NCBI RefSeq assembly: GCF_003171515.1
Contig: NC_089391.1
Location: forward strand, 3,286,001 to 3,350,000
Length of the DNA stretch: 64,000 bases
Reading direction: 5' to 3'
DNA from: Pyrenophora tritici-repentis
Taxonomy: Eukaryota > Ascomycota > Dothideomycetes > Pleosporales > Pleosporaceae
This document shows positions 17,899 through 39,685 of the stretch, piece after piece. The position numbers were made by a program, and so were the translations under genes. Every line of letters starts with the position of its first letter. Within the stretch, counting starts at the first letter, position 1. The notes under the pieces are model-generated. The model was not told where the DNA came from, did no database searches, and worked only from the letters and a program-made list of their open reading frames with translations.

Positions 17899-18065
17899 TG
17901 TTACGGATCCATAGACTCGCTCGGCCCATGGCCCCCATATCGATAAGATCCTTATCTTATCGGACTAGCGCCTTGGCGCCCACAGCATAAGTTCGGGCTC
18001 ACAACGTAGATAGCTCGATAGCTTGTATCTTGTCAAATCCAATCTTTCTTGATCGATCCCTCACA
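17899..18065 (+). repeat. Gypsy 5' LTR
   Basis: 167-bp direct repeat matching 24839-25005, with TG...CA ends. Confidence 0.95.
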
Positions 18066-18215
18066 TTATACAAGCTCCCTTTCAAGACGGGCCCTGGAAG
18101 CTCGTTCGCGAATTGTATTTTCTTGTCGCTGCGAGCGACACGCCAACGACAGAAACACTTACGCGACGAGGATCGCATTGACTATACGTACCGCCGCAGA
18201 AGAGCCGCCGTAGTA

Positions 18216-18351
18216 AAGACACCTGATTGCCCAGCTGCATAGCTGTACCCACCTGCCAGAAAAGACCCGCCGCCGCAGAGTGCCGCCGCGGAAGACACTG
18301 GATTGCCCAGCTGCATAGCTGTACCCACCTGCCAGAAAAGATCCGCCGCCG
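18216..18351 (+). repeat. 76-bp tandem repeat in gypsy leader
   Basis: Two near-identical copies, starting at 18216 and 18292. Each contains GATTGCCCAGCTGCATAGCT followed by GTACCCACCTGCCAGAAAAG and a CCGCCGCCGC run. The repeat lies in the untranslated leader just before gag. Confidence 0.85.
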
Positions 18352-18369
18352 CTTCTAGCGCTGCCGCCG

Positions 18370-20208
18370 ATGATGGCCCGACTAAACGAGACGAGCAAGG
18401 ATGCCCACGACCAGGGTGCTCAGAACGACACACAAACCATTCCAGCAGAGTCGCACCTTGAGTACGGCGACTTTGAGAATGACGACGACCTCACCGAAGC
18501 GGAGAAGGCGACTATTAGACAGAAGTTCGCCACCCGCAAGAGACAGGTCACTTTTGGCCGTGGAGACGGCCAAGGCAACAGCGAGGACGAGGGCAATGAC
18601 GTCAACGCCGCTGAACGCCGACGACAGTCTTGTAGACAGTCTCTTAAGAAAGCCGTTAAGCCAGCGGATAAGACTTCTATAGAACTAGGCTACGACGACG
18701 ACACGGATGACATGTATCTACGTTTTTATGGCATCCACGACAACGATGAGCGCGAGATCCTCGCGGACATGAGGAACGTTGACGACTTCACCGCTTGCAT
18801 CGCTGAACATGCTGAGAGTGTCTTTGGACACCTAGCAGATTTGCTTAGTCAGATAGCTGAACAAGCCGAACAGCTAGACCAAGCACATAATGAAGCCCGT
18901 GTACAACAAGAAGCAGCTGACGCCCGCGTGGAGCGCGCCCAGACGCAAGCTCGCGCTGCCGCCGCAGACGAGCTTGCCCAAGTCACCCAGAAATGCAACC
19001 GCATGATCACTACTAAGAACAGCTACGCTTCACGGCTAGCAGTGCTCGAAGACGAGCTTGCAGCCTCGCGCGAGTCAAACGTGAAGCTCTACTCCCAGAT
19101 TAGCGACCTCTACAACGAGAGGAGTGTCCTGCAACAGCACGCGGGCGTCCCGACGAATGGAAATTTATATGACACGCGCCCAGCTCAGTTCCAGTCGTCC
19201 CCTCCTCCAATGACTGCGAACCCGTTCATTGGCACTGGCACTCACGACTTGATGCTGCCTCCCCCTATGGCACATCATCAGAAAAACCGACCCCTAGCTC
19301 GGTCTGCTGTATCGGACAACCTCACTGCAACGGGTGCAAAGCTGAAGGATATTGACATCTTTCGCGGAGACAGCACCGACAAAGAGGACTACAAGTATTG
19401 GCGCCGCAGCGCCAGGAACTTCTTAAACAAAACTACTATCCACACAACTGTTCAAGATCAGCTCGACTACCTGATTGACCACTTGCGAGGACCAGCCGCT
19501 GCACAGGTGGAATATAGAGCAGCACCCGGAGCTCGTAACGCCTACGTGACAGCGGAAGAAGTCCTCACGGAACTTGATCGCATCTTTGACACGGTCGACA
19601 AGGTCACCGAAGCCAGCGCAGCGCTACACGACAGCGGCTCTGGAGGATTAAAGCAACGCGACAATGAATCGTTTAACACCTGGGTAGCCCGCTTTACCTC
19701 TACAGTCGCACCATTGAACCTGGGCGACAACGAAATGATCCAGCACGCGATCCGACTCATGAAGTTTGGTCGTAACGCAGGTTTACAATTCCGCCATGGT
19801 GATACTTGGGAAGCGTTTGCCCAGAATTGCCGCACTCAGCAACAGCTCTCACGTCTCACCCAGAGCAGCGGAAATAATGGTACCCGAACCGGCCGCAACA
19901 CGTCTAACGCTGGTGGTGGAGGTAATGGCAACGGCAACAGCAATAGCAGCGGCTCCACAACGCGTAACAACTACGGTCGCACGCGCGCGCAACTCAACGC
20001 GTTGAGTAAGCAAGGCGAGTGCTTTAAATGCGGAGGCACGGCAAATGTCAGCGGCAAGAAACATCGTCCGACCGACGCAGACGTCCCAGCAGCCTGCAAG
20101 TCTGGCTCTATCGTGCCAGCTAGCCGCGTCCCTGCCCTCAAAGCTACATTCACCAACGCCGCCCTCCAGGCCACAGTCGTCGATGCCACCGACGAGTCGG
20201 AAAACTAG
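18370..20208 (+). CDS. Gypsy Gag
   Basis: 612 aa from an ATG 304 bp after the LTR. The N-terminal third is acidic. A coiled-coil rich in Gln, Glu and Ala lies at about residues 150-260. A retrotransposon-gag region spans about 330-500 (DIFRGDSTDKEDYKYWRR, FNTWVARFTS, WEAFAQNCRT). A Gly/Asn-rich linker is followed by a zinc-knuckle-like CFKCGG...H...C near residue 555. The gene ends at a TAG at 20208 and overlaps the next frame by about 160 nt. It forms the particle shell and binds the RNA. Pol lies in the +1 frame relative to gag. Confidence 0.9.
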   Translation: MMARLNETSKDAHDQGAQNDTQTIPAESHLEYGDFENDDDLTEAEKATIRQKFATRKRQVTFGRGDGQGNSEDEGNDVNAAERRRQSCRQSLKKAVKPADKTSIELGYDDDTDDMYLRFYGIHDNDEREILADMRNVDDFTACIAEHAESVFGHLADLLSQIAEQAEQLDQAHNEARVQQEAADARVERAQTQARAAAADELAQVTQKCNRMITTKNSYASRLAVLEDELAASRESNVKLYSQISDLYNERSVLQQHAGVPTNGNLYDTRPAQFQSSPPPMTANPFIGTGTHDLMLPPPMAHHQKNRPLARSAVSDNLTATGAKLKDIDIFRGDSTDKEDYKYWRRSARNFLNKTTIHTTVQDQLDYLIDHLRGPAAAQVEYRAAPGARNAYVTAEEVLTELDRIFDTVDKVTEASAALHDSGSGGLKQRDNESFNTWVARFTSTVAPLNLGDNEMIQHAIRLMKFGRNAGLQFRHGDTWEAFAQNCRTQQQLSRLTQSSGNNGTRTGRNTSNAGGGGNGNGNSNSSGSTTRNNYGRTRAQLNALSKQGECFKCGGTANVSGKKHRPTDADVPAACKSGSIVPASRVPALKATFTNAALQATVVDATDESEN

Positions 20209-22981: not shown

Positions 22982-24744
22982 CAGCGATCGTAAATGCCTA
23001 CCGCGTCGATCCCACACTACAAGAAATAATACGAGCAAAGGCAGACGGCGCCCGTCACCTTCCCCACACTGTCGCCATACAAATGAAGCTGAAGCTAGAG
23101 CTACAGGACTGCGAAATCCGCAACAGTCTGGTTTACTTCCGCGGCAGACTCTTCATCCCCTACGACGACGATCTTCGCAAAGACATCGTCCGTCGGTTCC
23201 ACGACACCGCCACGGCGGGCCACGGCGGCAAGCGCTCTACCTACTACCTAGTTAGCCAACAGTACTACTGGCCGCTCATGACAGACACAGTCGCTCAGTA
23301 TACCCGGAGTTGTGTAGTTTGCCGACGCGCAAAGCCATACAGAGACCGCAAGCAGGGACTGCTGCACCCGCTCCCCGTACCGAAACGATTCTGGACTGAC
23401 ATTTCAGTCGACTTCATCACACCCCTGCCAGACTGTACTAGATTCGGACGCACCTACTCTCATGTCATGGTCGTGATTGACCGGCTAAGCAAGTCGCAAC
23501 GGTTTATCGCCCTAGACAGCCTTGAAGTTGATGCTGTTGTCCGAGCATTTGTCGATTACGTCTGGAGAGAGGAAGGTTTCCCTACTACAATTGTGTCTGA
23601 CCGAGGGTCACAGTTCGTCTCTCATTTCTGGAAGGAGCTGTGTCATCGACTGGGTGTTACACCAAAGCTCTCTACAGCTTACCACCCAGAAACAGACGGC
23701 CAGACTGAAGTCGCCAACGCCGGACTAAAGTGTTACCTGCGTGCTTACACGAACTATATGCAAAACGACTGGGTAGACTGGCTGCCACTAGCCCAGCTCG
23801 CCATCAATAACAGAGAAAACGTGTCCTCTGGCGTCGCACCCGCGCTTGCCACCAAGGGCTACCTACCTCGCATGGGATCGGAACTAGTCACCGAAGACTC
23901 GCCCATTACCGACGCCCGTTCACGCGCAGAACAGTTGCTCCGCGAAGACGCCCGAGGCACGGTGAAAAGGATGACCGACGTTATCCGTTTCATGCAAGAA
24001 AATCTTCGCTGGTCCCAAAACAAGATGGAACACTACGCCAACCAGCACAGACAGCCCGCTCCAGACTACCGCGTCGGTGACAAAGTCTATATTGATGCCC
24101 GCAATATCCCTACGATGCGCCCGAGCCGCGGTCTCAGCGCAAAGAACCTTGGCCCATACAAAGTGCGAGCTTTGCCCAACCGATATGCAGTCGAGCTCGC
24201 ACTACCAGACTGCTACAAACAAGTCCATCCAGTGTTCCACCCATGGTTACTACACCTGGACGCCGATCAAACAGCTCGCCCAAGTGAGGGCGTCATCGCT
24301 GAGAAACACCCTGACGGAGAGCACGACTACTACGTAGACATGGTCGTCGACTGTCGCATAGATAAACGACGCAAGGACACCCTCACAAACAAGAAAGGCA
24401 TGCTCCAGTATAAGGTTAAGTACACCAACTCCCCAGACTGGAATGCCTCGCCCGCATGGCAAGACTATACAGACCTGTGGGGCGCAGAGGAAGCGGTTGA
24501 AGACTTTCACCGTCTCTATCCCGACAAGCCCCCACCTCACGAACTGTATCGAGACCTAGCGTTGTATCTCAACCTAGTCGCCGCATATTCACTTGGTCGC
24601 GATGATGTTGAAGTTGTTAGCGTACTAGACAGTTGTGAGCTTGCCCTATCACCTTCGCATTCACTGATGGCACAGCTTGGACCTGGGAAGGTGGCACAAC
24701 TCAGGACGTCTGTCTCCAAGCAGAAGCAAGGACCCGAAGGATGA
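22978..24744 (+). CDS. Gypsy integrase with chromodomain, separate ORF
   Basis: 588 aa starting at the ATG that overlaps the preceding stop as ATGA. An H2C2 zinc finger (GHGG..., CVVCRRAK) lies at about 75-118. The DDE core has Asp in SVDFITPL (about 142), Asp in IVSDRGSQF (about 207) and Glu in DGQTEVANA (about 243). A GPY/F-type region (GPYKVRALPN, VHPVFHPWLL) comes next. A chromodomain sits at about 450-520 (YYVDMVVDCRID, LQYKVKY, NASPAWQDYTDLW), which targets insertion to modified histones in chromoviruses. In most gypsy elements integrase is fused to RT. Here either the ATGA overlap allows restart or a one-base indel near the GGGG at 22951-22954 broke the fusion. Confidence 0.92.
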   Translation: MTAIVNAYRVDPTLQEIIRAKADGARHLPHTVAIQMKLKLELQDCEIRNSLVYFRGRLFIPYDDDLRKDIVRRFHDTATAGHGGKRSTYYLVSQQYYWPLMTDTVAQYTRSCVVCRRAKPYRDRKQGLLHPLPVPKRFWTDISVDFITPLPDCTRFGRTYSHVMVVIDRLSKSQRFIALDSLEVDAVVRAFVDYVWREEGFPTTIVSDRGSQFVSHFWKELCHRLGVTPKLSTAYHPETDGQTEVANAGLKCYLRAYTNYMQNDWVDWLPLAQLAINNRENVSSGVAPALATKGYLPRMGSELVTEDSPITDARSRAEQLLREDARGTVKRMTDVIRFMQENLRWSQNKMEHYANQHRQPAPDYRVGDKVYIDARNIPTMRPSRGLSAKNLGPYKVRALPNRYAVELALPDCYKQVHPVFHPWLLHLDADQTARPSEGVIAEKHPDGEHDYYVDMVVDCRIDKRRKDTLTNKKGMLQYKVKYTNSPDWNASPAWQDYTDLWGAEEAVEDFHRLYPDKPPPHELYRDLALYLNLVAAYSLGRDDVEVVSVLDSCELALSPSHSLMAQLGPGKVAQLRTSVSKQKQGPEG

Positions 24745-24821
24745 GACACAACATAACTGCTCGGCATCAAGCACAGCGTCATAAAATAAAAGACATTCAC
24801 GGCTTGCAGGTGCAACCGTCT

Positions 24822-24838
24822 TCTGAAAGGGGGGGTAA
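24822..24838 (+). other. Polypurine tract of gypsy element
   Basis: A purine run (GAAAGGGGGGG) lies directly before the 3' LTR, the normal site for plus-strand priming. Confidence 0.75.
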
Positions 24839-25005
24839 TGTTACGGATCCATAGACTCGCTCGGCCCATGGCCCCCATATCGATAAGATCCTTATCTTAT
24901 CGGACTAGCGCCTTGGCGCCCACAGCATAAGTTCGGGCTCACAACGTAGATAGCTCGATAGCTTGTATCTTGTCAAATCCAATCTTTCTTGATCGATCCC
25001 TCACA
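24839..25005 (+). repeat. Gypsy 3' LTR
   Basis: 167-bp direct repeat matching 17899-18065. Confidence 0.95.
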
Positions 25006-25540
25006 ATTGACGCCTGCTGAATATTCTCTTGCTTCTGCCTATTAAGCTAATTAAGAAGCCCTTCTCATCCATATTGTATATATCTTGAGCCTTAAGGTGG
25101 TATTTAGTGATCTTTTAATGCAGCAGCTCGAAGTAGAGTCTATACTTTAACTTAGAATTAGCTAGGTGGCGCGTACAATCCATGGCGCTGGTCTACTTTA
25201 AGATAAGATAGATCTCGTGTTGGTTGATAAAGCGAGTAACCTAGCTCTCGCTGAGCTGCTGATGGGCTACTTCTGATAAGAAATTCCTAATCATCTCTCT
25301 TATAGGAGGAAGGCCTCTCTCTGTAAGCGTTTTGATATATCTCACAAGCTCTAGCTCTTGTTGTGGGCTGATAGCTTGCTGCTGAGCGTATCCATTACTC
25401 CTAGGCCCTGTCACGCGCCTCCACCTCCGCGATAGAGTTGCGCGGCTGACACCCCATTTCCTCGCAAACTCTGCTAATACAATTTTTTCTCCGGGTTCTT
25501 GCGACTCTAAATCTGCAATCGCATCATCAATTGGAGCCAT
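25006..25540 (-). pseudogene. Pogo-type DDE transposase, 5' part only, RIP-damaged
   Basis: Starts at ATG 25540 with a Psq/CENP-B-type helix-turn-helix (LAEFARKWGVSRATLSRRWRR) and continues with the HTH region ending HQQLSES. After a TAG at the place of a conserved Trp, the frame continues VTRFINQHEIYLILK, stop, TSAMDCTRHLANSKLKYRLYF, stop, KITKYHLKAQDIYNMDEKGF. The last part is the start of the DDE domain. Three in-frame stops sit where Trp or Gln is expected, a RIP-like pattern. The reading is cut at 25006 by the gypsy LTR, so the catalytic core is missing. It belongs to the Tigger/Fot1-like pogo group. Confidence 0.85.
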
Positions 25541-25639
25541 AGTTGTTGAGTTATAGCGCGTTGAAGTTATGACGCTGAGACGCGCGTTTGGTGTTCAGCG
25601 TGCACGAGATGAATCCGTGCACGAGGTGCACGGACACGT
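25541..25639 (-). other. Probable outer end of the pogo relic
   Basis: Short region upstream of the pogo ATG. It contains nested copies of GTGCACG/CGTGCAC (25600-25635) that look like a terminal inverted repeat region, and it ends at the TA used by mariner-type copy A. Assignment is by position. Confidence 0.4.
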
Positions 25640-25641
25640 TA

Positions 25642-25739
25642 TGGGTGTTTCTCGAAATACCTTGAGCCACCTGGATCTGGTTGGCTTGGTGGCCAAGAAC
25701 ATCAACTCCTATAGTAATTTGTTAGTAAATCGATGCAGC
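25642..25739. repeat. Copy A terminal inverted repeat, transposase side
   Basis: Begins TGGGTGTTTCTCGAAATACC. Matches the reverse complement of 28933-29029 with scattered mismatches over about 97 bp. Confidence 0.9.
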
Positions 25740-25846
25740 CACGCTTTCTAACACCCACAACGTATTTGAAGTTCATTGTTTGCTGCGATCGCCTCTACTG
25801 ACTCGCGTTTTTGGTGTTGCAATTTTCTCGAGCCCATCTCATCGCG

Positions 25847-26820
25847 ATGCCAGGCACCGGCCACCGCTTGCAGCCCGCTGTTCTCCAGGCTATCCTCGAC
25901 CGAATTGCTGCCTGCGAAAGTGATCGAGCCATCTCTAGAGCTACAGGTGCGAGCCGTAACACAGTAGCAAAGCTGAGGTTGAGCTTAGAGTTTTGGGGCG
26001 TGCCTTATCCGCCGCGCTGCGTTCGACTTGGGCGGCCATCTATACTCCGGCAAGCTCAGCGCGAAGGCCTTCAGGCATACCTCAATGGCTCACCGGGCGC
26101 ATACATGGATGAGATGAGGGACTTCTTGTACGACGAGTACGACGTTAGGATAAGCCTTGCGAGCGTTTACCGAGAGCTAGAGAAGATGAGATGGTCTCGC
26201 AAGCTTGCAACAAAGCGGGCAAAGGAGCAGAGTGAGCCACTCCGCCGCCTCTATCTTGCCAGGATGGCGCAACACTATAAGGCGGAGCAGATCGTTGCGT
26301 TGGACGAGAGCGCCTGCAATGAGCGTACGGGCGACCGCAAGTATGGCTGGTCTCCAATCGGGAGCCGGTGGAGCTATCACACAGCTTCAGGCGATCAGAA
26401 CGGTGGTCGCTGCTGCCAGCCATGACGATAGATGGCTACATAAGCTATAAGATCTTTCAAGGCGCGATTACATCTGAGATCCTAGAAGACTTCTTAGAGT
26501 TTCAAGTGCTGCCGTTCTGCAATCCTCACCCAGGGCCAGCCTCAGTAATCGTGCTTGATAACGCCTCCATCCATCGATCAGAGCGTGTACGGGTGCTTTG
26601 CCAAAGTGCTGGAGTACTCCTTGAGTATCTGCCGCCATACTCACCAGATTTCAACCCCATCGAGAAGAGCTTTAAGCAGCTCAAGGGGTGGATGAAAAGG
26701 AATTCAGCGCAAGCGGAGAACTTCATTGACTTTGGGGTCTTTCTTGAGTATGCAGCGCAGCTGGTGTGCTGTAATATTAACTGCAGAAGCTGGTTCCATA
26801 GGTGTGGCTATCCCTATTAA
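25847..26820 (+). pseudogene. DD34E transposase, frameshifted (copy A)
   Basis: Same gene as the intact transposase at 35714-36688 but with GGG instead of GGGG at 26360-26362. The frame is correct to about residue 171 (KYGWSPIG) and then leaves it. The rest of the domain, including the second Asp and the catalytic Glu, is in another frame and ends at 26820. The first ATG is at 25847. This copy cannot make a full transposase, so it could move only with enzyme from copy B or another copy. Confidence 0.9.
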
Positions 26821-27124
26821 TTGTGCTTTTAAATGGATGCCACAGTACGTTTCTATAGGTAGATGATACCATACAAATGCGAACGATTACACCTTAATGC
26901 GCAACCCACAAAAGCGATTTAATAATTCTAAAAAAATAAGAGCTATTTCTATACATATAGAACTATCTTAGGAAGTTAACCTGTTATAATCGCATAACGT
27001 TGTAGTGTTGTACATAGGGCTATCCAAATAGACTATTGTTGCAGCGCATTTGAAACGCCTGAAAAACCTCAACACTATAGCGGGCACGGGCCGCTGTCAC
27101 CAAAAACGCTCAGGCCACTAAGCT

Positions 27125-28819
27125 TCAAGCATTCTCGCCATCATCCTCCACAACACTGCTAGACGGTTCAACCACCAATTTCTTGCGCGCAATCTCTTCT
27201 CTTTTCTTACAACGTTCGACTCGTCTCCAGTTACGATCTGTGAGACCCTGGTACCCAGCTTGCCATTCTTTTGCAGTGTTTTGTAGCGTGAAAAACCAGC
27301 CAGGAGGCTGCTTGAAATGCTGCGTCCACAACTTCAAGATATCACCAGATGGCTGCATCAAGAGGTTGATATCCATAGCTCCGTCAATAACAAGAGTCTT
27401 ATAAAGCTCGTTAATGTCCTCTCCAACTGTAGGAAATTTTAACTTAAGGTAGTTAAAGAAATTACTAGTATGCTCGTTAATCTCCTGCTCATGATCATAT
27501 CGGATAGGCGCCCACTGAGATGCACTAGATACCTCAGCTCTTGTTATCGTTGGTGCAGCTGCCTGCAAGTTAGACTCCTGTTGAGGTTGCCTGTTCATCC
27601 GCTCAAGCTGTCCAACGATGAGCAGTTTTGTTAAGCTTTTGATATCATCGTCGCCATCTCCAGCCGCCCGCAACTTGCGCGTTTTCTCATGCACCCGTAG
27701 GTCCTTTGCTCTCAAAATTGCAAGCCGTACATCATCAGATGGCTCATCGTACGTTGCCCTTCTCGCTGTAATTGCTCTTGCCCACATGGAGATAATGTTG
27801 CCGTTGACAAAGAGGTGATCTTCGAAGCGCGCTGGCTGCCTCGCTGTTGGCGCCATCCAGCAGCAATAAGGATAGTTCTCGCAATGGGTATCTGTACAGC
27901 GCCATCTATCCCGGATAGCAATAGCATGCCCGCTACCTGCTTGTTCAGCTGCTATTACACCAGCAAGCCCCTCCTCTTGAATCACCGTTGCGGTGCGTCG
28001 ACGAGGACCGTCGACAACCGTTGGCAACGGCTGCTGCTCCCCTGGAATTTCAGCCAAGATGAGCTCGAAATCGACGTTTACTGGCTCGCTGACATAGTTA
28101 TCAACCTCTACAACAAGGCGCTGAAAGCTATTCCACGTTGCATCAACACCTCGCCGCAATCGCTTTATCGCGCGCTCGCGTTTGGCCTGCTTAGCTGGGT
28201 AAACAACAGTGCAAACAGATGAGATCTTCGCTCTTTTTGGCCGTAATTCTGCAACAACGTCATCTACCCACTGCCATAGGTCGTCGAAATGCAGCGAGTA
28301 CAGCCGTACGCCGTGCTCGCTATCGGCAGCTTCAGGAATAAAGTGTTTCTCCATATCACCACCAAGGCAAGCCCTCCACCTAACGCGCAGTACAGGATTA
28401 ACCTCATCCTCTAGCGCTTGCGATGAGCGAGGCAGCCATGGAGTGCCTTCTTGACGTCGGTACGCTGGCTCTCCCTCATCCTCAACACTACCGGCAGCGC
28501 CCTTAGCAGCGATCTCATCCTCATCCTCAGGCAGCGGATCGCCATCTCCATCCTCGAAAGTATCCTCATCCTCGCCAACGATATCTTCAGCTTGCGCGGA
28601 GGCAGCTGTTTGGGTGGCTTGCAGCTCAGGCTCGGACAACGGGCTTTGACGGCGCGGCGGGGCAGTCGCTGGAGGCGACGGCAGCGCCTCACGGCGGACA
28701 CGTTTAGGCGTTAAATGGGTAGGATTTTGTCTAGTTGCTGGCGCTCTACGCTTCTGGGAGGACGGGTTAACGCCTTGATCGAATGGCTGCTTCGGCTTAC
28801 GCTGGCGCTTGGGCGGCAT
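27125..28819 (-). CDS. Companion protein of mariner-type element (copy A), unknown function
   Basis: 564 aa from the ATG at 28819; an open frame continues 14 codons upstream without an ATG. The protein is identical to that of copy B. The N terminus is basic and Pro-rich (MPPKRQRKPKQPFD, TPKRVRRE), nuclear-signal-like. A strongly acidic stretch is at about 75-125. A globular region follows (VLRVRWRACLGGDM, HFDDLWQWVDDVVAEL). A Cys cluster at about 308-320 (RWRCTDTHCENYPYCCW) with a downstream His could bind zinc. The C-terminal part (INEHTSNFFNYLKLKFP, GWFFTLQNTAKEW) is also conserved-looking. I do not recognise a family. It converges with the transposase, with about 300 bp between their stops. 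A DNA-binding or regulatory helper for transposition is speculation. Confidence 0.85.
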   Translation of the reverse strand: MPPKRQRKPKQPFDQGVNPSSQKRRAPATRQNPTHLTPKRVRREALPSPPATAPPRRQSPLSEPELQATQTAASAQAEDIVGEDEDTFEDGDGDPLPEDEDEIAAKGAAGSVEDEGEPAYRRQEGTPWLPRSSQALEDEVNPVLRVRWRACLGGDMEKHFIPEAADSEHGVRLYSLHFDDLWQWVDDVVAELRPKRAKISSVCTVVYPAKQAKRERAIKRLRRGVDATWNSFQRLVVEVDNYVSEPVNVDFELILAEIPGEQQPLPTVVDGPRRRTATVIQEEGLAGVIAAEQAGSGHAIAIRDRWRCTDTHCENYPYCCWMAPTARQPARFEDHLFVNGNIISMWARAITARRATYDEPSDDVRLAILRAKDLRVHEKTRKLRAAGDGDDDIKSLTKLLIVGQLERMNRQPQQESNLQAAAPTITRAEVSSASQWAPIRYDHEQEINEHTSNFFNYLKLKFPTVGEDINELYKTLVIDGAMDINLLMQPSGDILKLWTQHFKQPPGWFFTLQNTAKEWQAGYQGLTDRNWRRVERCKKREEIARKKLVVEPSSSVVEDDGENA

Positions 28820-28932
28820 CCCAACAGCAGCTAGATTGAGCTCGCAACAAGCTCCACACAAACAAAACGCTATACACGAACGATTTAGAGTACAGGACTA
28901 GCTTCATGGGCTTCTGGAGGTGGGAAACGGCT

Positions 28933-29029
28933 GCTGCATTAATTTACTAACAAATTACTATGGGAGTTGATGTTCTTGGGCACCAAGCTAACCAGATCCA
29001 GGCGGCTCAAGGTATTTCGAAAACCACAA
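28933..29029. repeat. Copy A terminal inverted repeat, companion side
   Basis: Outer end reads, on the minus strand, TTGTGGTTTTCGAAATACC, followed by the shared terminal sequence. Confidence 0.9.
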
Positions 29030-29055
29030 TATCATCAATCTTCACGCATTAAAAC

Positions 29056-29997
29056 ATGACATCCTCATCTCCAAGTGCAAAGAGAAAGATTAATGGCGCC
29101 CGTTTTTATTTTGAGTGGCACGGCCATCCCATTAGCGACCTGAACACTTTGCATGACATCACCCTTGCGGAACGACCGGAAAACCCTATCATCTACCTAG
29201 CCGGCGACTCATCCCTGGATAACAAATACTGGGTTGATAAGTCAGCTAGTTGCCTCCCACAACCAATCCCAGATATATACCACAAGACACTTCAAGACCC
29301 CGCAAAACTGAAGCCTGATGTCGCTTGTTGGGTCAATCATCTACTCAAAGATCGCGCGACATGCATTAACGCCGCCGTAGAAGCGACCATGCTACGCGAT
29401 CGTGACAATCGGCTGTTGGATCACGACAAGTTCATCCGCGATAACATCCGCCCGAATGATGTTCTGATTGTCAGCGTTGGTGCAAACGATGTTGCTCTTC
29501 GCCCGAGCTTTTCAACGATGCGACACATGCTTCATTTGGCCTGGCTGAGTTCTCGTAAATCTCTGGAGGATGGTACAGCACTACCTCTGATGTACTTCCG
29601 TGACTTTTTTGGCACTAAAGTACAAGAGTACATTGTGCGTCTTACCGCAAAGACTAGGCCGCGCACAGTGATCGTCTGCATGATCTACTTCCCGTTGGAA
29701 TGGGGCCTAGGACAAGAAAGCTGGGCTGATGCACAGCTTAAGGCTCTAGGATATAATTCTTCCCCAGAACACCTCCAGACTGGTATTCGAGCTATATACG
29801 AGTTAGCAACAAAGCAGATCAGAGTGGAGGATACAGAAATCGTGCCGTGTGCATTGTACAAAGTGCTTGATGGGAAGACCGCAGACGACTATACAGCAAG
29901 AGTGGAACCAAGTGAGCAAGGTGGTCAGAAGATGGCGCAGAAATTTGTGAATATGCTCGAAGAAATTTGGGATTATGATGATCCAGTGGGTTCATGA
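29056..29997 (+). CDS. SGNH/GDSL-hydrolase-like protein
   Basis: A single-exon 313-aa protein starting 25 bp beyond copy A. Block I is IIYLAGDSSLDN (Ser about 52). Block III is VSVGANDVAL (Gly 142, Asn 144). Both are hallmarks of SGNH esterases and lipases. The usual block V Asp-x-x-His near the C terminus is not present; at that place the protein reads RVEPSEQGG. So either the catalytic His is elsewhere or the protein is a non-classical member. No signal peptide, so it is probably intracellular. It lies between two inverted transposon copies, in the same direction as the coiled-coil gene that follows. Confidence 0.75.
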   Translation: MTSSSPSAKRKINGARFYFEWHGHPISDLNTLHDITLAERPENPIIYLAGDSSLDNKYWVDKSASCLPQPIPDIYHKTLQDPAKLKPDVACWVNHLLKDRATCINAAVEATMLRDRDNRLLDHDKFIRDNIRPNDVLIVSVGANDVALRPSFSTMRHMLHLAWLSSRKSLEDGTALPLMYFRDFFGTKVQEYIVRLTAKTRPRTVIVCMIYFPLEWGLGQESWADAQLKALGYNSSPEHLQTGIRAIYELATKQIRVEDTEIVPCALYKVLDGKTADDYTARVEPSEQGGQKMAQKFVNMLEEIWDYDDPVGS

Positions 29998-30256
29998 CGT
30001 TGGGCCGCACCATGACCTCGGTATCTAGGTAAACAAAGGCTTTACAGACAATCCTTGCAGATCTAGACACACGCTCTCGGACATCAGGTTCTTTGTGCGT
30101 TTCGTTGCCAAGGCGCCTTTATCTCAAAATACATCTCGCTCAAACAAAATGCTTCTTTGTGCGTCATGTACCTCATATTATGCCGGTTGCCACATTTCGA
30201 AGTTAACTCCAGGCACACAACTGAGTATCATAGAGACATCACACAACGCAACAATA

Positions 30257-32455
30257 ATGGATACTTACGCTTTCGCGCGACATGCGTTGGACGCAGATCC
30301 CGGCATATCTGGCGACATCATCTTCCTCGTTAGCGTACTCCTCACCTTTGCATTCGGTGCTTTGTTCATCTACTGGTTTCGACAAGAAAATCTTGCCAAG
30401 CAGCTCGAACACTTATCTGCAGAGGGAGTTTCTGTCCAGGCTTTCCGCTTCGACCGCCTTGAGGAGACTTTACGACAGATGTCGCAGCACAGCCTGACGC
30501 AAGTCAATGATCCAACTAATCCACAGGGAGTTCAAGATTTAAGCCCTTTGATGGATGCGATACGCGCTCCCGAAAGAAAGATCGATGCGTTGGAAGCTCG
30601 TTCGACTATACAAGAAAGGGTCCAGACGGAACCACAGCTACAAGCACCATCTTCTTTGTCTTCAACGCAAACTCAAACCATTCAGCCAGTCCAATCCTAC
30701 TCTGAAATTACTGGGGTACATACATAGGCAAGAGCACCTGTTCCGCAAGCAGTCACTATTGGTGCAATAGGAATGCAAGAAACACGCCCAGTTATACCGG
30801 TCCAATCCTACTCTGACTACTCTGAAATTACTGGGGTTCATACAGAGACAAGAGCACCTGTTCCGCAAGCAGTTACCATTGGTGCAATAGGAATGCAGGA
30901 AACGCGACCAGTTATACCAAGCCCTGACCCTGAGATAGAGGATCTCAAGAATAAGCTACGGCAATCCAATGGGATTGCTGGAAATATGGTGGAATGCATT
31001 CGGGCGTTCCAAGCCATAACAGAAGCTGGGGATTTGGTAGCCAAGCAAAGGAATCTCGAGATCGCTTCGCGTTTACATGACATTCGAGACATTGACCGCT
31101 TCGTAAAGAATGCATATAAAGAGATTGATAAGCTGAAGTTGAAGATTAATGTTGATCGTTCTGAGAATAAACGTATGTCTGATGACATAGGGTTACGGAG
31201 TGTTAGGACCACTGATCTTCGGAGTGAGTTGAAAGAGAAGAAACAGACGATTGTAAGCCTAAAGAATCAAGTTGAATCTCTCAATGATAAGCACGCTCAG
31301 AGAACGGAATCCTACGAGCAGGATAGACGGAAACAGAAAGAGACGATTGCTGATCTTACGAGTGAGGTCGAACAGAAAACGCTGAGGATTGGAAGCCTGG
31401 AAGATGAAGTTAAAAAACACAAAAAGCAGCTTGATCGAACCAACGGATTTCTCTCCGGGATCGAGAAAGAAATCAAGGCCTTGAAGCTTCAACGAGAAGA
31501 TATGATGAGTCGCACGGAACAGCTCACCACAACTAACAACAAGCTCAGTGCGGAGATAGATATGAATAAATCTGCTATGATACGAGGAGAGGCTAGGATA
31601 GGACTCCCCCTCGAAACGCTAGTCTCATGGGAACAAGAGCAAAGAGCCGTGTCTGAGGAGATGGAGAGAAACGAGGAGGATTTGATTGAGCGGAGAAGTA
31701 AATATAATAATAAGAAGAAGGCTATGACCAATAACAAGACAGGGAGCAGCAATCGTGAACCTGTTCGGAATATGAAGGATACGGAGGCGATTATGTCGAT
31801 TCGAGAAAAAGAATTCAAAGAAAATGTAAAAGAGTCATACCAATTCTGGGGGCAGAAGGCATCAGAACATGATCCGGACGGGACCCCAAAGGCTACCGAG
31901 ACTACGACTCCAGCTATCACCAATGCTTTCATTTTCACCAATGTGCCTAGAGTGCGAGACTGGAATGATACATCAAACGAGGATGTACGCCGAGCCTCTG
32001 GTACAGAACCAAGTGAGTCCGAAGCCAACACTACAACTTCGGAAACTGATCGTCTCGAGGTGCGTCTAGTTAATCCAGCTATCAACAATCCTGTCGTTTC
32101 CGCTGAGATGCCGGAAGAGCGAAACAGGGAGGATGAAAGCCAATCTTCCGATTCAGGAATGATCGGGTCGGAAGCCGACTCTAAATCTTCTGAACCAAGT
32201 ACTGTCGAGCCGCCTCCAGCTACTTCAGCTATCAAAAATCCTGTCATTCCCACCGAGTCGCCCAAAGAGAAAAACGGGGAAGATGAAAGCCGAATTTCCG
32301 ATTTAAGAACGGTCGAGGCGGAAGCCAGCCCTGAATCTTCTGAGGCTGGTACTTTCGAGACGCCTCCAGAGCGAACAGAGGATGATGAAGTGTCGGATTC
32401 GGAAACTAAGCGAGCTGCCAGTGGCTCATTTCTTCCGTGGAGGTGGTGGTCCTAG
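30257..32455 (+). pseudogene. Membrane-anchored coiled-coil protein, split by in-frame TAG
   Basis: The frame opens with ATG at 30257 (MDTYAFARHALDAD) and, apart from one TAG at 30725-30727, stays open to 32455, about 732 residues. A transmembrane segment lies at about 20-43 (IIFLVSVLLTFAFGALFIYW). A long coiled-coil spans about 260-480, rich in Glu, Lys and Arg. The C-terminal region is acidic and repeats Glu/Ser/Pro blocks (NNPVVSAEMPEERNREDES and KNPVIPTESPKEKNGEDES). The TAG falls in a tandem DNA duplication whose second unit has GAG at the same place, so it is a simple nonsense change. Alternatives are stop readthrough or a separate downstream gene. The function is unknown. Confidence 0.65.
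30689..30919 (+). repeat. Tandem duplication inside coiled-coil gene
   Basis: Unit 1 (30689-30799, 111 bp) and unit 2 (30800-30919, 120 bp) begin GTCCAATCCTACTCTGA and end CCAGTTATACC. Unit 2 has nine extra bases (GACTACTCT). At matching positions unit 1 reads ACATAGGCA and unit 2 reads ACAGAGACA, which creates the stop in unit 1. Confidence 0.9.
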
Positions 32456-32496
32456 ATAGCCCACATCTCCCGTTTGCCGAAACTGTCGAAGCTGGT

Positions 32497-32955
32497 CTAA
32501 TTGTCCCAAGCCTACTTTGTTCCTGGGCAGTATTGCGAGTTGATCGGAGACCCCAAGCTGCCCTCGATACCCCAACAACTCCAGCTCGCTCGCAACCTCC
32601 GCCTCCCAAAGCGAAATCTCCGGTCCTCAATCTCCAGCAAGTCTTCTGCTTCCCTTAACAACAACAACCACCTCACACCCCGCAACACCGGTATCTCCTC
32701 CCCCTTCTCCAATACGCAGGTTTAGCTCTAAGCCCGAAGACTACCGCACCCATCTCGACCCCGAGCGCGACTTCACGTAACCCCAATGACCCGCACTGCA
32801 GCGTAACGTCCGACCAACGCCACATCCGCGCAGTTTGCACAGGCTGTCAAATGTCTATCTATCTGCCCTTTTCAAAGTCTGAGGAAGATACTGTTGTGCA
32901 TTTAGATTGGGATGACCATCTGAGGTATGAGTGTAACAAGATCGATGGTTCTTAG
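32497..32955 (+). pseudogene. Degraded gene fragment
   Basis: Coding-like stretches in different frames: FVPGQYCELIGDPKLPSI early on and, later, RHIRAVCTGCQMSIYLPF followed by WDDHLRYECNKIDGS with a stop. The CTGC, H and C spacing resembles a small zinc-binding motif. Frames do not join cleanly, so I call it a relic. No family was recognised. Confidence 0.25.
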
Positions 32956-33088
32956 TTTGGTACGCCAAGGATAGGTATCGTGGTACCACTAAGGAGGGCG
33001 ATGTTGGCCATCTAGTTAGTTTTGAGAAGATTACGAGTTTTTGGTTCTTTCGCTAATATAGAGTTGGTGTTTTGTTTCTTGTTATAAC

Positions 33089-33460
33089 GTCGGTCCAAGC
33101 GTGCCGGGACGCACGGTGTAACGGGACGCTTTCTCTACCAGACCCTCGGATTGCCCCTAGTGTTCTCGGATACAAACAAGTGCAATGCGCATCTATTCTG
33201 CAGCTCTCGTTCTCTTAGTACGTTAGTCTCCGACGCTCAAAAACGCGTTGTTAACCGTGCTGTCGCTCGTTCTATTAACGCCGCCTCCTAACTCTCCTCT
33301 AGCACTCCCCTGTTTATTTGTGACAGCACATTTCTAAGGAAGGCTCGGTGGGCTAGGAAGGAAGCTAGGATAGCAGAGATTAAGACTACGGTCTTAAAAG
33401 GTCGATTTAGGGTAATAAGGATACATCTCAGCAGTTTCTCCGCGCAGATAGCAAATTCGT
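33089..33460. repeat. Dispersed repeat, copy 2
   Basis: Diverged copy of 16631-17000, same orientation. Weak similarity may continue to the TA at 33503, where transposon copy B begins. Confidence 0.7.
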
Positions 33461-33504
33461 GAAAACGCGTCTAAAAGGCCGTGCGTCTTTGGCAGCTCTT
33501 AGTA

Positions 33505-33601
33505 TTGTGGTTTTCGAAATACCTTGAGCCGCCTGGATCTGGTTAGCTTGGTGCCCAAGAACATCAACTCCCATAGTAATTTGTTAGTAAATTAATGCAG
33601 C
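33505..33601. repeat. Copy B terminal inverted repeat, companion side
   Basis: Begins TTGTGGTTTTCGAAATACC directly after the TA at 33503-33504. Confidence 0.9.
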
Positions 33602-33714
33602 AGCCGTTTCCCACCTCCAGAAGCCCATGAAGCTAGTCCTGTACTCTAAATCGTTCGTGTATAGCGTTTTGTTTGTGTGGAGCTTGTTGCGAGCTCAATC
33701 TAGCTGCTGTTGGG

Positions 33715-35409
33715 ATGCCGCCCAAGCGCCAGCGTAAGCCGAAGCAGCCATTCGATCAAGGCGTTAACCCGTCCTCCCAGAAGCGTAGAGCGCCAGCAAC
33801 TAGACAAAATCCTACCCATTTAACGCCTAAACGTGTCCGCCGTGAGGCGCTGCCGTCGCCTCCAGCGACTGCCCCGCCGCGCCGTCAAAGCCCGTTGTCC
33901 GAGCCTGAGCTGCAAGCCACCCAAACAGCTGCCTCCGCGCAAGCTGAAGATATCGTTGGCGAGGATGAGGATACTTTCGAGGATGGAGATGGCGATCCGC
34001 TGCCTGAGGATGAGGATGAGATCGCTGCTAAGGGCGCTGCCGGTAGTGTTGAGGATGAGGGAGAGCCAGCGTACCGACGTCAAGAAGGCACTCCATGGCT
34101 GCCTCGCTCATCGCAAGCGCTAGAGGATGAGGTTAATCCTGTACTGCGCGTTAGGTGGAGGGCTTGCCTTGGTGGTGATATGGAGAAACACTTTATTCCT
34201 GAAGCTGCCGATAGCGAGCACGGCGTACGGCTGTACTCGCTGCATTTCGACGACCTATGGCAGTGGGTAGATGACGTTGTTGCAGAATTACGGCCAAAAA
34301 GAGCGAAGATCTCATCTGTTTGCACTGTTGTTTACCCAGCTAAGCAGGCCAAACGCGAGCGCGCGATAAAGCGATTGCGGCGAGGTGTTGATGCAACGTG
34401 GAATAGCTTTCAGCGCCTTGTTGTAGAGGTTGATAACTATGTCAGCGAGCCAGTAAACGTCGATTTCGAGCTCATCTTGGCTGAAATTCCAGGGGAGCAG
34501 CAGCCGTTGCCAACGGTTGTCGACGGTCCTCGTCGACGCACCGCAACGGTGATTCAAGAGGAGGGGCTTGCTGGTGTAATAGCAGCTGAACAAGCAGGTA
34601 GCGGGCATGCTATTGCTATCCGGGATAGATGGCGCTGTACAGATACCCATTGCGAGAACTATCCTTATTGCTGCTGGATGGCGCCAACAGCGAGGCAGCC
34701 AGCGCGCTTCGAAGATCACCTCTTTGTCAACGGCAACATTATCTCCATGTGGGCAAGAGCAATTACAGCGAGAAGGGCAACGTACGATGAGCCATCTGAT
34801 GATGTACGGCTTGCAATTTTGAGAGCAAAGGACCTACGGGTGCATGAGAAAACGCGCAAGTTGCGGGCGGCTGGAGATGGCGACGATGATATCAAAAGCT
34901 TAACAAAACTGCTCATCGTTGGACAGCTTGAGCGGATGAACAGGCAACCTCAACAGGAGTCTAACTTGCAGGCAGCTGCACCAACGATAACAAGAGCTGA
35001 GGTATCTAGTGCATCTCAGTGGGCGCCTATCCGATATGATCATGAGCAGGAGATTAACGAGCATACTAGTAATTTCTTTAACTACCTTAAGTTAAAATTT
35101 CCTACAGTTGGAGAGGACATTAACGAGCTTTATAAGACTCTTGTTATTGACGGAGCTATGGATATCAACCTCTTGATGCAGCCATCTGGTGATATCTTGA
35201 AGTTGTGGACGCAGCATTTCAAGCAGCCTCCTGGCTGGTTTTTCACGCTACAAAACACTGCAAAAGAATGGCAAGCTGGGTACCAGGGTCTCACAGATCG
35301 TAACTGGAGACGAGTCGAACGTTGTAAGAAAAGAGAAGAGATTGCGCGCAAGAAATTGGTGGTTGAACCGTCTAGCAGTGTTGTGGAGGATGATGGCGAG
35401 AATGCTTGA
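33715..35409 (+). CDS. Companion protein of mariner-type element (copy B)
   Basis: 564 aa, identical to the product of 27125-28819 and described there. The ATG at 33715 is the first in frame; the open frame begins earlier with TTG. A fully preserved second copy, while the transposase of the other copy is broken, indicates either very recent duplication or selection on this gene. It ends at 35409, 304 bp from the transposase stop at 35714. Confidence 0.85.
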   Translation: MPPKRQRKPKQPFDQGVNPSSQKRRAPATRQNPTHLTPKRVRREALPSPPATAPPRRQSPLSEPELQATQTAASAQAEDIVGEDEDTFEDGDGDPLPEDEDEIAAKGAAGSVEDEGEPAYRRQEGTPWLPRSSQALEDEVNPVLRVRWRACLGGDMEKHFIPEAADSEHGVRLYSLHFDDLWQWVDDVVAELRPKRAKISSVCTVVYPAKQAKRERAIKRLRRGVDATWNSFQRLVVEVDNYVSEPVNVDFELILAEIPGEQQPLPTVVDGPRRRTATVIQEEGLAGVIAAEQAGSGHAIAIRDRWRCTDTHCENYPYCCWMAPTARQPARFEDHLFVNGNIISMWARAITARRATYDEPSDDVRLAILRAKDLRVHEKTRKLRAAGDGDDDIKSLTKLLIVGQLERMNRQPQQESNLQAAAPTITRAEVSSASQWAPIRYDHEQEINEHTSNFFNYLKLKFPTVGEDINELYKTLVIDGAMDINLLMQPSGDILKLWTQHFKQPPGWFFTLQNTAKEWQAGYQGLTDRNWRRVERCKKREEIARKKLVVEPSSSVVEDDGENA

Positions 35410-35713
35410 AGCTTAGTGGCCTGAGCGTTTTTGGTGACAGCGGCCCGTGCCCGCTATAGTGTTGAGGTTTTTCAGGCGTTTCAAATGCGCTGCAACAATA
35501 GTCTATTTGGATAGCCCTATGTACAACACTACAACGTTATGCGATTATAACAGGTTAACTTCCTAAGATAGTTCTATATGTATAGAAATAGCTCTTATTT
35601 TTTTAGAATTATTAAATCGCTTTTGTGGGTTGCGCATTAAGGTGTAATCGTTCGCATTTGTATGGTATCATCTACCTATAGAAACGTACTGTGGCATCCA
35701 TTTAAAAGCACAA

Positions 35714-36688
35714 TTAATAGGGATAGCCACACCTATGGAACCAGCTTCTGCAGTTAATATTACAGCACACCAGCTGCGCTGCATACTCAAGAAAGACCCC
35801 AAAGTCAATGAAGTTCTCCGCTTGCGCTGAATTCCTTTTCATCCACCCCTTGAGCTGCTTAAAGCTCTTCTCGATGGGGTTGAAATCTGGTGAGTATGGC
35901 GGCAGATACTCAAGGAGTACTCCAGCACTTTGGCAAAGCACCCGTACACGCTCTGATCGATGGATGGAGGCGTTATCAAGCACGATTACTGAGGCTGGCC
36001 CTGGGTGAGGATTGCAGAACGGCAGCACTTGAAACTCTAAGAAGTCTTCTAGGATCTCAGATGTAATCGCGCCTTGAAAGATCTTATAGCTTATGTAGCC
36101 ATCTATCGTCATGGCTGGCAGCAGCGACCACCGTTCTGATCGCCTGAAGCTGTGTGATAGCTCCACCGGCTCCCCGATTGGAGACCAGCCATACTTGCGG
36201 TCGCCCGTACGCTCATTGCAGGCGCTCTCGTCCAACGCAACGATCTGCTCCGCCTTATAGTGTTGCGCCATCCTGGCAAGATAGAGGCGGCGGAGTGGCT
36301 CACTCTGCTCCTTTGCCCGCTTTGTTGCAAGCTTGCGAGACCATCTCATCTTCTCTAGCTCTCGGTAAACGCTCGCAAGGCTTATCCTAACGTCGTACTC
36401 GTCGTACAAGAAGTCCCTCATCTCATCCATGTATGCGCCCGGTGAGCCATTGAGGTATGCCTGAAGGCCTTCGCGCTGAGCTTGCCGGAGTATAGATGGC
36501 CGCCCAAGTCGAACGCAGCGCGGCGGATAAGGCACGCCCCAAAACTCTAAGCTCAACCTCAGCTTTGCTACTGTGTTACGGCTCGCACCTGTAGCTCTAG
36601 AGATGGCTCGATCACTTTCGCAGGCAGCAATTCGGTCGAGGATAGCCTGGAGAACAGCGGGCTGCAAGCGGTGGCCGGTGCCTGGCAT
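35714..36688 (-). CDS. DD34E transposase (Tc1/mariner superfamily), intact
   Basis: 324 aa from ATG 36688. N-terminal helix-turn-helix DNA-binding regions span about 1-125 (ATGASRNTVAKLRL, RISLASVYRELEKMRWS). The catalytic DDE_3-type domain has Asp153 in VALDESACNE, Asp238 in VIVLDNASIH and Glu273 in FNPIEKSFKQLK, with 34 residues between the last two. YLPPYSPDFNPIE is the standard IS630/Tc1/mariner signature. The enzyme would cut at the terminal inverted repeats and insert at TA. The 324 aa length is normal for the superfamily. It is the only intact transposase of this type in the window. Confidence 0.93.
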   Translation of the reverse strand: MPGTGHRLQPAVLQAILDRIAACESDRAISRATGASRNTVAKLRLSLEFWGVPYPPRCVRLGRPSILRQAQREGLQAYLNGSPGAYMDEMRDFLYDEYDVRISLASVYRELEKMRWSRKLATKRAKEQSEPLRRLYLARMAQHYKAEQIVALDESACNERTGDRKYGWSPIGEPVELSHSFRRSERWSLLPAMTIDGYISYKIFQGAITSEILEDFLEFQVLPFCNPHPGPASVIVLDNASIHRSERVRVLCQSAGVLLEYLPPYSPDFNPIEKSFKQLKGWMKRNSAQAENFIDFGVFLEYAAQLVCCNINCRSWFHRCGYPY

Positions 36689-36795
36689 CGCGATGAGATG
36701 GGCTCGAGAAAATTGCAACACCAAAAACGCGAGTCAGTAGAGGCGATCGCAGCAAACAATGAACTTCAAATACGTTGTGGGTGTTAGAAAGCGTG

Positions 36796-36893
36796 GCTGC
36801 ATCGATTTACTAACAAATTACTATAGGAGTTGATGTTCTTGGCCACCAAGCCAACCAGATCCAGGTGGCTCAAGGTATTTCGAGAAACACCCA
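36796..36893. repeat. Copy B terminal inverted repeat, transposase side
   Basis: On the minus strand begins TGGGTGTTTCTCGAAATACC, the same as the left end of copy A. TA follows at 36894-36895. Confidence 0.9.
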
Positions 36894-36895
36894 TA

Positions 36896-37532
36896 TGAGC
36901 AGAAGCGCGATGAGACCACAGCGGAGCCAAATGCGACAACGCCACTGCAAGCTTTACTGAGGTGTATACAAGGACAGTTTGCAGTAGCCCGATAATTTTT
37001 GGTGAAAGACGTGAACAAGAGACGCGCTCCGAGCCGCTGCCTGGCGACTTGTATTAGGCAGCAACGACGTCGGTAGTTAATGCTGATTGGCGCACATGCC
37101 TCACGTTAACGATGACATCAAACACGTTCATTTTCTCGTCCAGCAGATGCAGGTCTAGAAGATCACTAGTTCACTAAGTCTATCAGGATGATATCATGAA
37201 GGGAGCTAGGTATAGTAAGTTTTCATGAAAAAAAATCACGTGATAAAGGTCCCGTGAAATTTGAATGTTCGTTCGTAAAGAGACGGTCACGTGATACCTT
37301 AAATCTAGGATGTAGTACGATCTATTTTCTAAACAATAAATTCTGCGCATGATTAAATTAGACTAGAGTTAGGCTATTGTAAGTAACATCTATGCAAGAT
37401 TATTAGTCAAAGCAACCGCAATGATGCAACCGGCACTGACTAAATAAAGAAACAAAGAAGGAAAGAACAAAGCTTACCGTGAAAACGTACCTCACTGCTT
37501 ACCAACCCCTCTCGCTAGCTGAGATAGTGAAT
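36896..37532. other. Intergenic; two TCACGTGA boxes
   Basis: No gene recognised. Palindromic TCACGTGA occurs at 37236-37243 and 37287-37294, a bHLH-type site, but the nearest gene (37533-39122) ends here rather than starts, so a promoter role is doubtful. Confidence 0.4.
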
Positions 37533-39122
37533 CTACAACTGCGACTCCTTCGTCTTGTCCTCGTCCCCGCGAACAAGCGGCTTCTGGGTGAGCAAGTGCA
37601 TCTGAAACTGCGACTCCTTCGCCTCCAGCTCATGCTCACGAGCACGCAGCTTCGACGCCAAATCTCGATGCTCTGAAACCCCACACTTGCCTTGCTTGAT
37701 CGACTCCTTCATCGCATCCACCTCTGCACGATACTCACCAGCCACCTTCTCCCACCGCTTGGCAAGGGACGCCTGGTCAACATGATCCTTCTCAGTCTTC
37801 TCCATTTCATTTACAAACTGTTGAACGAGATGGAGAGGACCGTTAATGTTGATAGAGGAATTCGTAGAGATGGCGTGCTGGACGTATTGGAGCAAGGTCC
37901 AGTTGCGCTTCTCAGATGGCGTGATGTTGATGGTCACGGCCACGTTGGGAAGCGCGTCGGGTTCCTGAATAGACTGATCTGTAGGCGATGAGGTCGCAGA
38001 AGACTTGTCGGAGGCCGGAGTGTCAGCAGAGACATCCGGTGCGGTCGAGACGGCTTGCATGTCGGATTGGCAAAGGACATCATGATGGACGACTGTGGGT
38101 AAAACATCCGATCGAGGTGCCACAGGCTCTGTAGCAGAAACCTGCATGTCAGAGAATTGCAAAGCAGGCTGTTGAGCTGCCACAGGCTCTGTGGCAACGC
38201 CTGAGATCCCGGAGAAACGGAGCTGGGACATCTCCATCCGGATAGCACGCGCGACCATCTCGCCCTGGCCAGAAAGCAATTGGACAATGCGCTCCGAATC
38301 AACTTCGCGACGCTTCATCAACAACTTATTCATCTTGGCCAAATGACGCAAACCATCAGTCTCGGCCTCAGCCGCCTTCTGAGCATCCAGTGCACCAGCC
38401 AACTGCTCGAAAAGCGTGGATTCATATTCCTCACAACTCTGACTGTCATGCATGTTCTCACTTTGACTGCCATGCACGTTCTCCATACGGCTGATCTCCT
38501 TCTCGAGCTTTGCAATGCGGTCAGAGTCGGCCATAGAAGACTGCGCGGGCTTGAGGCGATGCAACTGTGACTGGTAAGGCTCAGCTGCGAACTTTCCGGT
38601 CAACTGACGAGGAAGGGAATAAGCAGCAGGAGTATGACATGTATTAGACCGTTCTTGTTCCCTCTCATTACGCTCCTTGTCAAGATGGTGCTTAATATCT
38701 GCATAACTCTCCTTTAGCTGTCTGATCTCGTCCTCCTTGGTGGCCAAAGCTTGTTGCAATGTGGCAATCTGAAGGTCGGTGTTCTTGTCACGCTTCTCTC
38801 GCTGCTTTGCCTCAAGCCGAAACTTATCTTGCATGGCACAGACTTCCTTGGAAGCCTGGTCGCGCACCCGCTGGACCGTATCGTCTTGAGCCTTGCACTC
38901 ACGTCTAAGCTTGGAAAGCTCTCCAGCGTGGCGGTGGGCCTCGTCCTTAGCCTTCCCATGCTCGGATTGCCAGTGCTTGACCTCCTTGCCCAAGTCGGCG
39001 AGTTCGTTCTCAAGGTATGTAATCTCCGAGGCCTGCTTGGAGATACGGCGCTCTTGTTTCGAAATATTATGCAACATATCCTCTACGCTATCATCAGAAC
39101 GAGAATGGTTGCGGCGAGACAT
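37533..39122 (-). CDS. Coiled-coil protein of unknown function
   Basis: A 529-aa single-exon frame from ATG 39122. The N-terminal 160 residues form a long coiled-coil (ISKQASEITYLENELADLG, LQQALATKEDEIRQLKESY). Shorter coils follow at about 205-300. The middle section (about 305-400) is Ala/Thr/Ser/Pro-rich with repeated TEPVA and SDMQ elements. A short ordered block (NVAVTINITPSEKRNWTLLQ) is followed by a final coil. No membrane segment or signal peptide. I do not recognise the family. In architecture it resembles the coiled-coil gene at 30257-32455 on the other side of transposon copy B, but no sequence similarity is obvious. Confidence 0.75.
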   Translation of the reverse strand: MSRRNHSRSDDSVEDMLHNISKQERRISKQASEITYLENELADLGKEVKHWQSEHGKAKDEAHRHAGELSKLRRECKAQDDTVQRVRDQASKEVCAMQDKFRLEAKQREKRDKNTDLQIATLQQALATKEDEIRQLKESYADIKHHLDKERNEREQERSNTCHTPAAYSLPRQLTGKFAAEPYQSQLHRLKPAQSSMADSDRIAKLEKEISRMENVHGSQSENMHDSQSCEEYESTLFEQLAGALDAQKAAEAETDGLRHLAKMNKLLMKRREVDSERIVQLLSGQGEMVARAIRMEMSQLRFSGISGVATEPVAAQQPALQFSDMQVSATEPVAPRSDVLPTVVHHDVLCQSDMQAVSTAPDVSADTPASDKSSATSSPTDQSIQEPDALPNVAVTINITPSEKRNWTLLQYVQHAISTNSSININGPLHLVQQFVNEMEKTEKDHVDQASLAKRWEKVAGEYRAEVDAMKESIKQGKCGVSEHRDLASKLRAREHELEAKESQFQMHLLTQKPLVRGDEDKTKESQL

Positions 39123-39685
39123 TGTAGTAACTGTAACCTCCGGGGTTTGGCAATGTCTGCTCTATAGGGAGTATAGATAGAACCGATTTTATACTGCTCT
39201 TAGCATACATTGTGAAACTCACTGTTACATAACTATAGTTTTTCTTGTTACTTATTTGTTCATATACAGTGCATTTAATATTCCTCCAACATAACGCTGA
39301 TTGACATTGACTTATGGTTCATTGTTCACACACAGCAGCCTGGAATTAAACTCACTGTAACCCCACATAGCGTATTACATCAACACAGTGCTTTTGGGGG
39401 GAAAGGATAGCCACATGCACCTGGGTAACAGGAATCATTTGACACGCAGTATAGAGGGGTTACTCTAGGCGTGTTCGGCGCCTATAGTATCAAGAATGAT
39501 GAGAGTCAACCACGCTGCCGCTGTCATATATTCTATTGCACTTAGGTGATTCTGTTGAAGAAAGGTCATGCGCATCGAACGGAACCTTGGAAGACACGAT
39601 GCCTTGGCTAGATTGCCACAACCTGTAGATTCATAGCAGTGGTGCTCGCTGCATCGTTGCATACACTAAATTACGGAATGACAGT
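39123..39685. other. Intergenic between coiled-coil gene and transporter
   Basis: Holds the promoter of the minus-strand coiled-coil gene and the 3' end of the transporter. Nothing else was recognised. Confidence 0.5.

Follow-up and report, generated by a model that had tools for sequence, protein, structure and literature searches.

Described relatives of the element pair

Tc1/mariner elements generally carry a transposase alone. A two-ORF Tc1/Mariner family is nevertheless already in print for Pyrenophora tritici-repentis (Manning et al. 2013, PMC3538342) and comprises 46 members, 31 of them almost identical and with both coding regions. The two elements described here, A and B, share with that family the species, the Tc1/Mariner assignment and a further full-length ORF enclosed by the inverted repeats, and probably belong to it. 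They differ in that the extra ORF is said in the same text to hold a PF08946 coiled-coil domain, whereas the second ORF of A and B (ORF2) has no Pfam match. The current PF08946 model is absent from ORF2 and gives three sub-threshold matches in the genome; the published analysis relied on an older library. New here is a silent variant that, of 50 copies, A and B alone carry.

A composite transposon associated with IS630 was reportedly described by Tenzen and Ohtsubo in 1991. It resembles the present layout in being a composite formed from a Tc1/mariner relative and differs in being bacterial. Two complete inverted elements around a load also make up the Sleeping Beauty sandwich vectors (PMC2874221 and PMC5715130), but those are engineered, and movement of the A-B block was not found in this genome. 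For cut-and-paste elements, both hops to nearby sites and the restoration of a copy through homologous repair have been described (PMC7827188 and PMC2874221). Sleeping Beauty and P elements likewise leave a new copy near its donor (PMC7827188); for A and B such a hop is read from one shared variant, and conversion would look alike. A literature search, in which most matches were judged at title level, found no paper on the A-B pair, and the accessible parts of PMC9594970 and PMC6710886 add nothing on it.

Structure of the pair

The window, meaning the whole 64-kb stretch of DNA that was analysed, belongs to contig 2 of a 40.9-Mb genome and contains two 3.39-kb elements in opposite orientations, each with two ORFs, spaced 4471 bases apart.

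25640..29031, + strand: element A, two-gene Tc1/mariner-type transposon (TA included at both ends; transposase side left)
33503..36895, - strand: element B, inverted copy (TA included at both ends; transposase side right)
29032..33502, no strand: intervening DNA (in this genome single copy except short repeats and the last 418 nt)
25811..26820, + strand: transposase gene of A (frame broken by one missing C-run base near 26362)
35714..36724, - strand: transposase of B (336 aa; DDE_3 domain; D165-D250-E285, 34 residues between the last two)
27125..28861, - strand: ORF2 of A (578-aa open frame, 564 aa from an internal ATG; no Pfam match)
33673..35409, + strand: ORF2 of B (578-aa open frame; no Pfam match)

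Alignment of A with the reverse complement of B gives 3393 columns that contain no mismatch and a single gap of one base, which bears out both the inverted geometry and the one-base difference that an earlier note, made from the sequence alone, had followed by eye. All four ends of the two elements are TA. The terminal inverted repeats proposed in that note are present, although their alignment spans 93 columns at 92.5% identity and not ~97 bp. Within each element the transposase gene lies at one end and ORF2 at the other, the two being read convergently, and the positions and orientation of the ORFs confirm that in both A and B the transposase end is the outer one and the ORF2 end the inner one. 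The description of two-gene Tc1/mariner-type elements around host-like DNA therefore holds. The ORF lists were made in bacterial style and serve as a guide only, the host being eukaryotic. Rfam and tRNA scans of the 64-kb window returned no matches.

Transposase and ORF2

The transposase matches DDE_3 at 102 bits (Pfam cut-off 28.6) and HTH_33 at 26.6 bits (cut-off 25), and the elements have the features that mark the IS630-Tc1-mariner group, namely a DDE/D triad with 34-residue spacing, TA ends, terminal inverted repeats and a helix-turn-helix. They depart from the usual, though not obligatory, pattern in which the transposase is the sole gene; a second ORF of 564-578 aa occurs in every fully compared copy and is interrupted in some. 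A PDB sequence search with the transposase produced weak integrase matches only (best E 0.0064).

The transposase region of A is divided into two open frames, 204 and 150 aa long, where B has one of 336 aa, and the C-run gap near 26362 that divides it was found in no other copy. Nine of ten gap positions among the copies lie in or beside runs of at least three identical bases, the exception being position 2540 and the count leaving out a two-base gap in one copy (L064). Because most of the gaps examined sit at single-base runs, the missing base in A may be a sequencing or assembly error, and the broken frame is perhaps not real.

ORF2 has no match in Pfam at E values up to 10. Its profile gave three weak matches in PDB, the best of which (E 0.0039) is a transcription factor IIA chain matched over its N-terminal part. 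A protein search recovered 71 proteins among 8000 scored candidates. The named relatives are from P. tritici-repentis and other Pleosporales only, with Setomelanomma, Ophiobolus, Alternaria and Clathrospora among the latter; those outside P. tritici-repentis are at 34-66% identity, and an alignment of 18 rows has a mean column identity of 47%. These Pleosporales relatives, together with the column identity, suggest that ORF2 is old and was not captured recently. A model of poor quality for ORF2 contains hints of PB1-like and SAM-like parts. Among viral contigs there were 0 exact matches to the transposase-side end, and 31 pattern matches to ORF2 of which 0 were confirmed.

The family in the genome

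End patterns tolerating up to three mismatches detected 52 transposase-side ends in the genome (52/52 exact) and 50 ORF2-side ends (49/50 exact). By position these ends pair into 50 elements, 45 of 3386-3398 nt and five longer. A full-length element search of the genome scored 40 among 57 candidates, and full-length comparison covered 16 copies, comprising A, B and 14 others. Ten of those 14 are mutually identical and differ from B at one site only, element position 1334. In 11 of the 14 the full-length ORF2 frame is intact, and in 13 that of the transposase. Across the final 1500 nt no difference appears at 13 of 30 loci, B among them. These elements form a two-gene family of ~50 near-identical copies that multiplied very recently.

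Two observations concern one TA within the element, at position 1954. Four copies on three contigs (L026, L036, L049 and L054) have a 5-nt insertion there that turns TA into TA-AGT-TA and resembles an excision footprint, and in a fifth copy (L058) that TA is the insertion point of a 2.1-kb repeat.

Three 6.13-kb copies on contigs 10 and 13 (L063, L067 and L068), all within a duplicated region, have a common 2.73-kb insert at one position inside ORF2, which by reading is a putative hAT-like element (8-nt duplication, 784-aa open frame). They were considered as a case of cargo movement and set aside, since their 400-nt flanks are 99-100% identical and indicate one insertion in a duplicated region.

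A and B as sister copies

27698, - strand: silent private variant in A (element position 1334)
34836, + strand: silent private variant in B (element position 1334)

A genome pattern search over 50 copies showed the base A at element position 1334 in 2/50, which are exactly elements A and B, and G in the remaining 48/50; the variant is silent in ORF2. Other variants are shared by distant copies, including a 5-nt insertion common to 4/30 loci on three contigs, a missing base at 2295 in 2/30 loci on two contigs, and a missing T-run base at 2096 in 3/30 loci, all on contig 1 and 0.3-1.7 Mb apart. Variant sharing among the copies is thus not generally linked to proximity, yet in A and B the two coincide. 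On this sequence comparison A and B are sister copies, each the closest relative of the other.

The physical closeness of A and B proves little by itself. Of 5000 simulated layouts of 52 points on 40.9 Mb, ~25% held one or more gaps no longer than 4471 nt, and ~4% matched the observed situation of two or more gaps no longer than 4792 nt. A second pair of neighbors, at C10:3920975 and C10:3925796 with 4792 nt between them, was examined as a parallel to A and B and rejected because one member is truncated and the two have no informative variant in common. A third close pair of copies lies inside a duplicated region. It is the closeness and the private silent variant together that argue for a shared local origin of A and B.

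DNA between the elements and the insertion site of B

29056..29997, + strand: GDSL/SGNH-like gene, 313 aa (24 nt lie between A and the start codon)
30257..32722, + strand: coiled-coil-like gene region (matches the 726-aa A1F97_10908 of the same species, with gaps)
33085..33502, no strand: diverged repeat family fragment, 418 nt (ends at the inner TA of B)

Between 29032 and 33084, matches elsewhere in the genome are short only (39-57 nt, near 32940-32996). The GDSL match of the 313-aa protein falls under the curated Pfam cut-off. This protein is 99.7% identical to one named from other isolates (TUN199, Alg130) and has relatives at 60-70% identity in many Pleosporales. The coiled-coil-like gene matches A1F97_10908 at 82% over 822 columns in a gapped alignment.

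The repeat fragment next to B bears on how B arrived. Against the joined flanks of B, the repeat profile runs on for ~20 nt past the TA, with an 8-nt gap. Control joins scored as high in 29 of 3000 cases (p about 0.01), and by reading at least five of those 29, among the 15 matches listed, are the repeat family itself; for controls beginning TATG the figure is 4/166. Local alignments across the site with four family members gave p values of 0.009, 0.018, 0.086 and 0.94, the last belonging to the closest repeat copy (L010), which shows no continuation across B. When the joined query was searched against the genome, other repeat copies mostly ended at or before the junction, one reaching 14 nt and another 7 nt past the TA. 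Because the repeat continues weakly across the site, B probably entered alone, and the comparison weakly favors a simple lone insertion into resident DNA.

Flanking landscape

25006..25641, no strand: terminus of a further TA-flanked repeat (one TA in common with A)

The repeat adjoining A on the left is one which we take, from its open frame, to be Fot1-like. Exactly such a neighbor is present at 3/52 transposase ends (window position 25640, G000:C1:455443 and G000:C2:4913288). To the left of it is a gypsy-type retrotransposon (17893-25010) with identical 167-nt terminal repeats and mismatching outer 5-nt flanks (CTAGT and ATTGA); the landscape left of A has thus been rearranged. Further left again is coding-like DNA that appears HET-like by eye. 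On the other side, the right flank (36894-39300) is unique in the genome, and 21 contigs are on record for the 529-aa protein that it encodes. Elsewhere in the window, adjoining long open frames occupy 45678-51154, where the frame at 45678-49505 contains endonuclease, reverse transcriptase and RNase H domains and is LINE-like; an adjoining pair of long frames at 1384-5855 is similar to these by layout only.

Origin of the pair

We consider it probable, at roughly 0.78, that A and B are members of the ~50-copy family that share a local origin, by hop or by conversion, and that the DNA between them is resident chromosome which they happen to bracket. In the case of a hop, one copy would have moved a short distance by cut-and-paste to produce the other, and restoration of the donor site from the sister chromatid would have left two copies in place. 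Alternatively, two independent nearby insertions may later have been made alike by gene conversion. Either way A and B would each be a transposon in its own right, with the intervening DNA bracketed by chance. We place the local hop somewhat ahead of gene conversion, although both give the same picture. Gene conversion with crossing over between the inverted copies would also flip the middle, and inversion of the middle by recombination between A and B, as put forward in the earlier note, is possible in principle.

That note had also suggested that the whole 11-kb block could move as one unit; such a move would use the outer, transposase-side end of A together with that of B. The near-identical inverted copies with like ends outward fit such an arrival, and the engineered Sleeping Beauty vectors of this layout, which carry larger loads (PMC2874221 and PMC5715130), show that such an arrangement is workable. 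The longest contigs recorded for the two passenger proteins in other isolates, 4549 and 4603 nt against a passenger of 4471 nt, are only a hint that repeats bound the passenger there too, and favor neither reading. Arrival of the block as a unit is nonetheless highly improbable. Each copy has complete ends and closes a 3.39-kb unit that is present at ~50 other places, and the inner and outer flanks of B look once contiguous, which argues weakly in the same direction. The block was not found at a second site in this genome, where its passenger is single copy; this too counts weakly and cannot alone exclude a past move, because cut-and-paste leaves no donor. The TA at the outer ends is uninformative on the arrival of the block, because the target of the family is always TA and the same dinucleotide occurs on inner and outer sides alike. 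With a single-copy passenger, a gap that chance yields in ~25% of layouts and a repeat continuing weakly across B, movement of the whole block is not supported, and this genome provided no positive evidence for it. We regard as very unlikely the fuller version in which A and B form a natural sandwich whose outer ends pair to carry the 4.5-kb block and whose arms recombine to flip it; if it were true, a flip would change the DNA 24 nt upstream of the GDSL-like gene.

Two unrelated insertions lying side by side, with no special kinship between A and B, would account for the spacing well enough, given that about a quarter of the simulated layouts of 52 elements on 40.9 Mb contained a gap as small. 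The silent variant of A and B occurs in none of the other 48 copies holding the site, whereas the other shared variants join distant copies (4/30 loci on three contigs, 2/30 on two), so that this explanation is strongly disfavored and in our view very unlikely. The least credible of the explanations weighed here is an assembly artefact, in which collapse or misplacement of repeat reads would have created a second copy, set its orientation or generated the variant common to both. The single-base gaps examined do mostly fall at single-base runs, as in an uncorrected long-read consensus, but the two sets of junctions differ, their flanks are single copy, and the shared variant is a substitution rather than a change in run length.

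Under a shared local origin, the pair shows how a composite-looking inverted layout can arise inside a high-copy family. The silent marker shows the sister status of A and B, and hop and conversion could be told apart at one site across isolates. ORF2, whose named matches are confined to the Pleosporales, is for its part a possible partner of a Tc1-like transposase.
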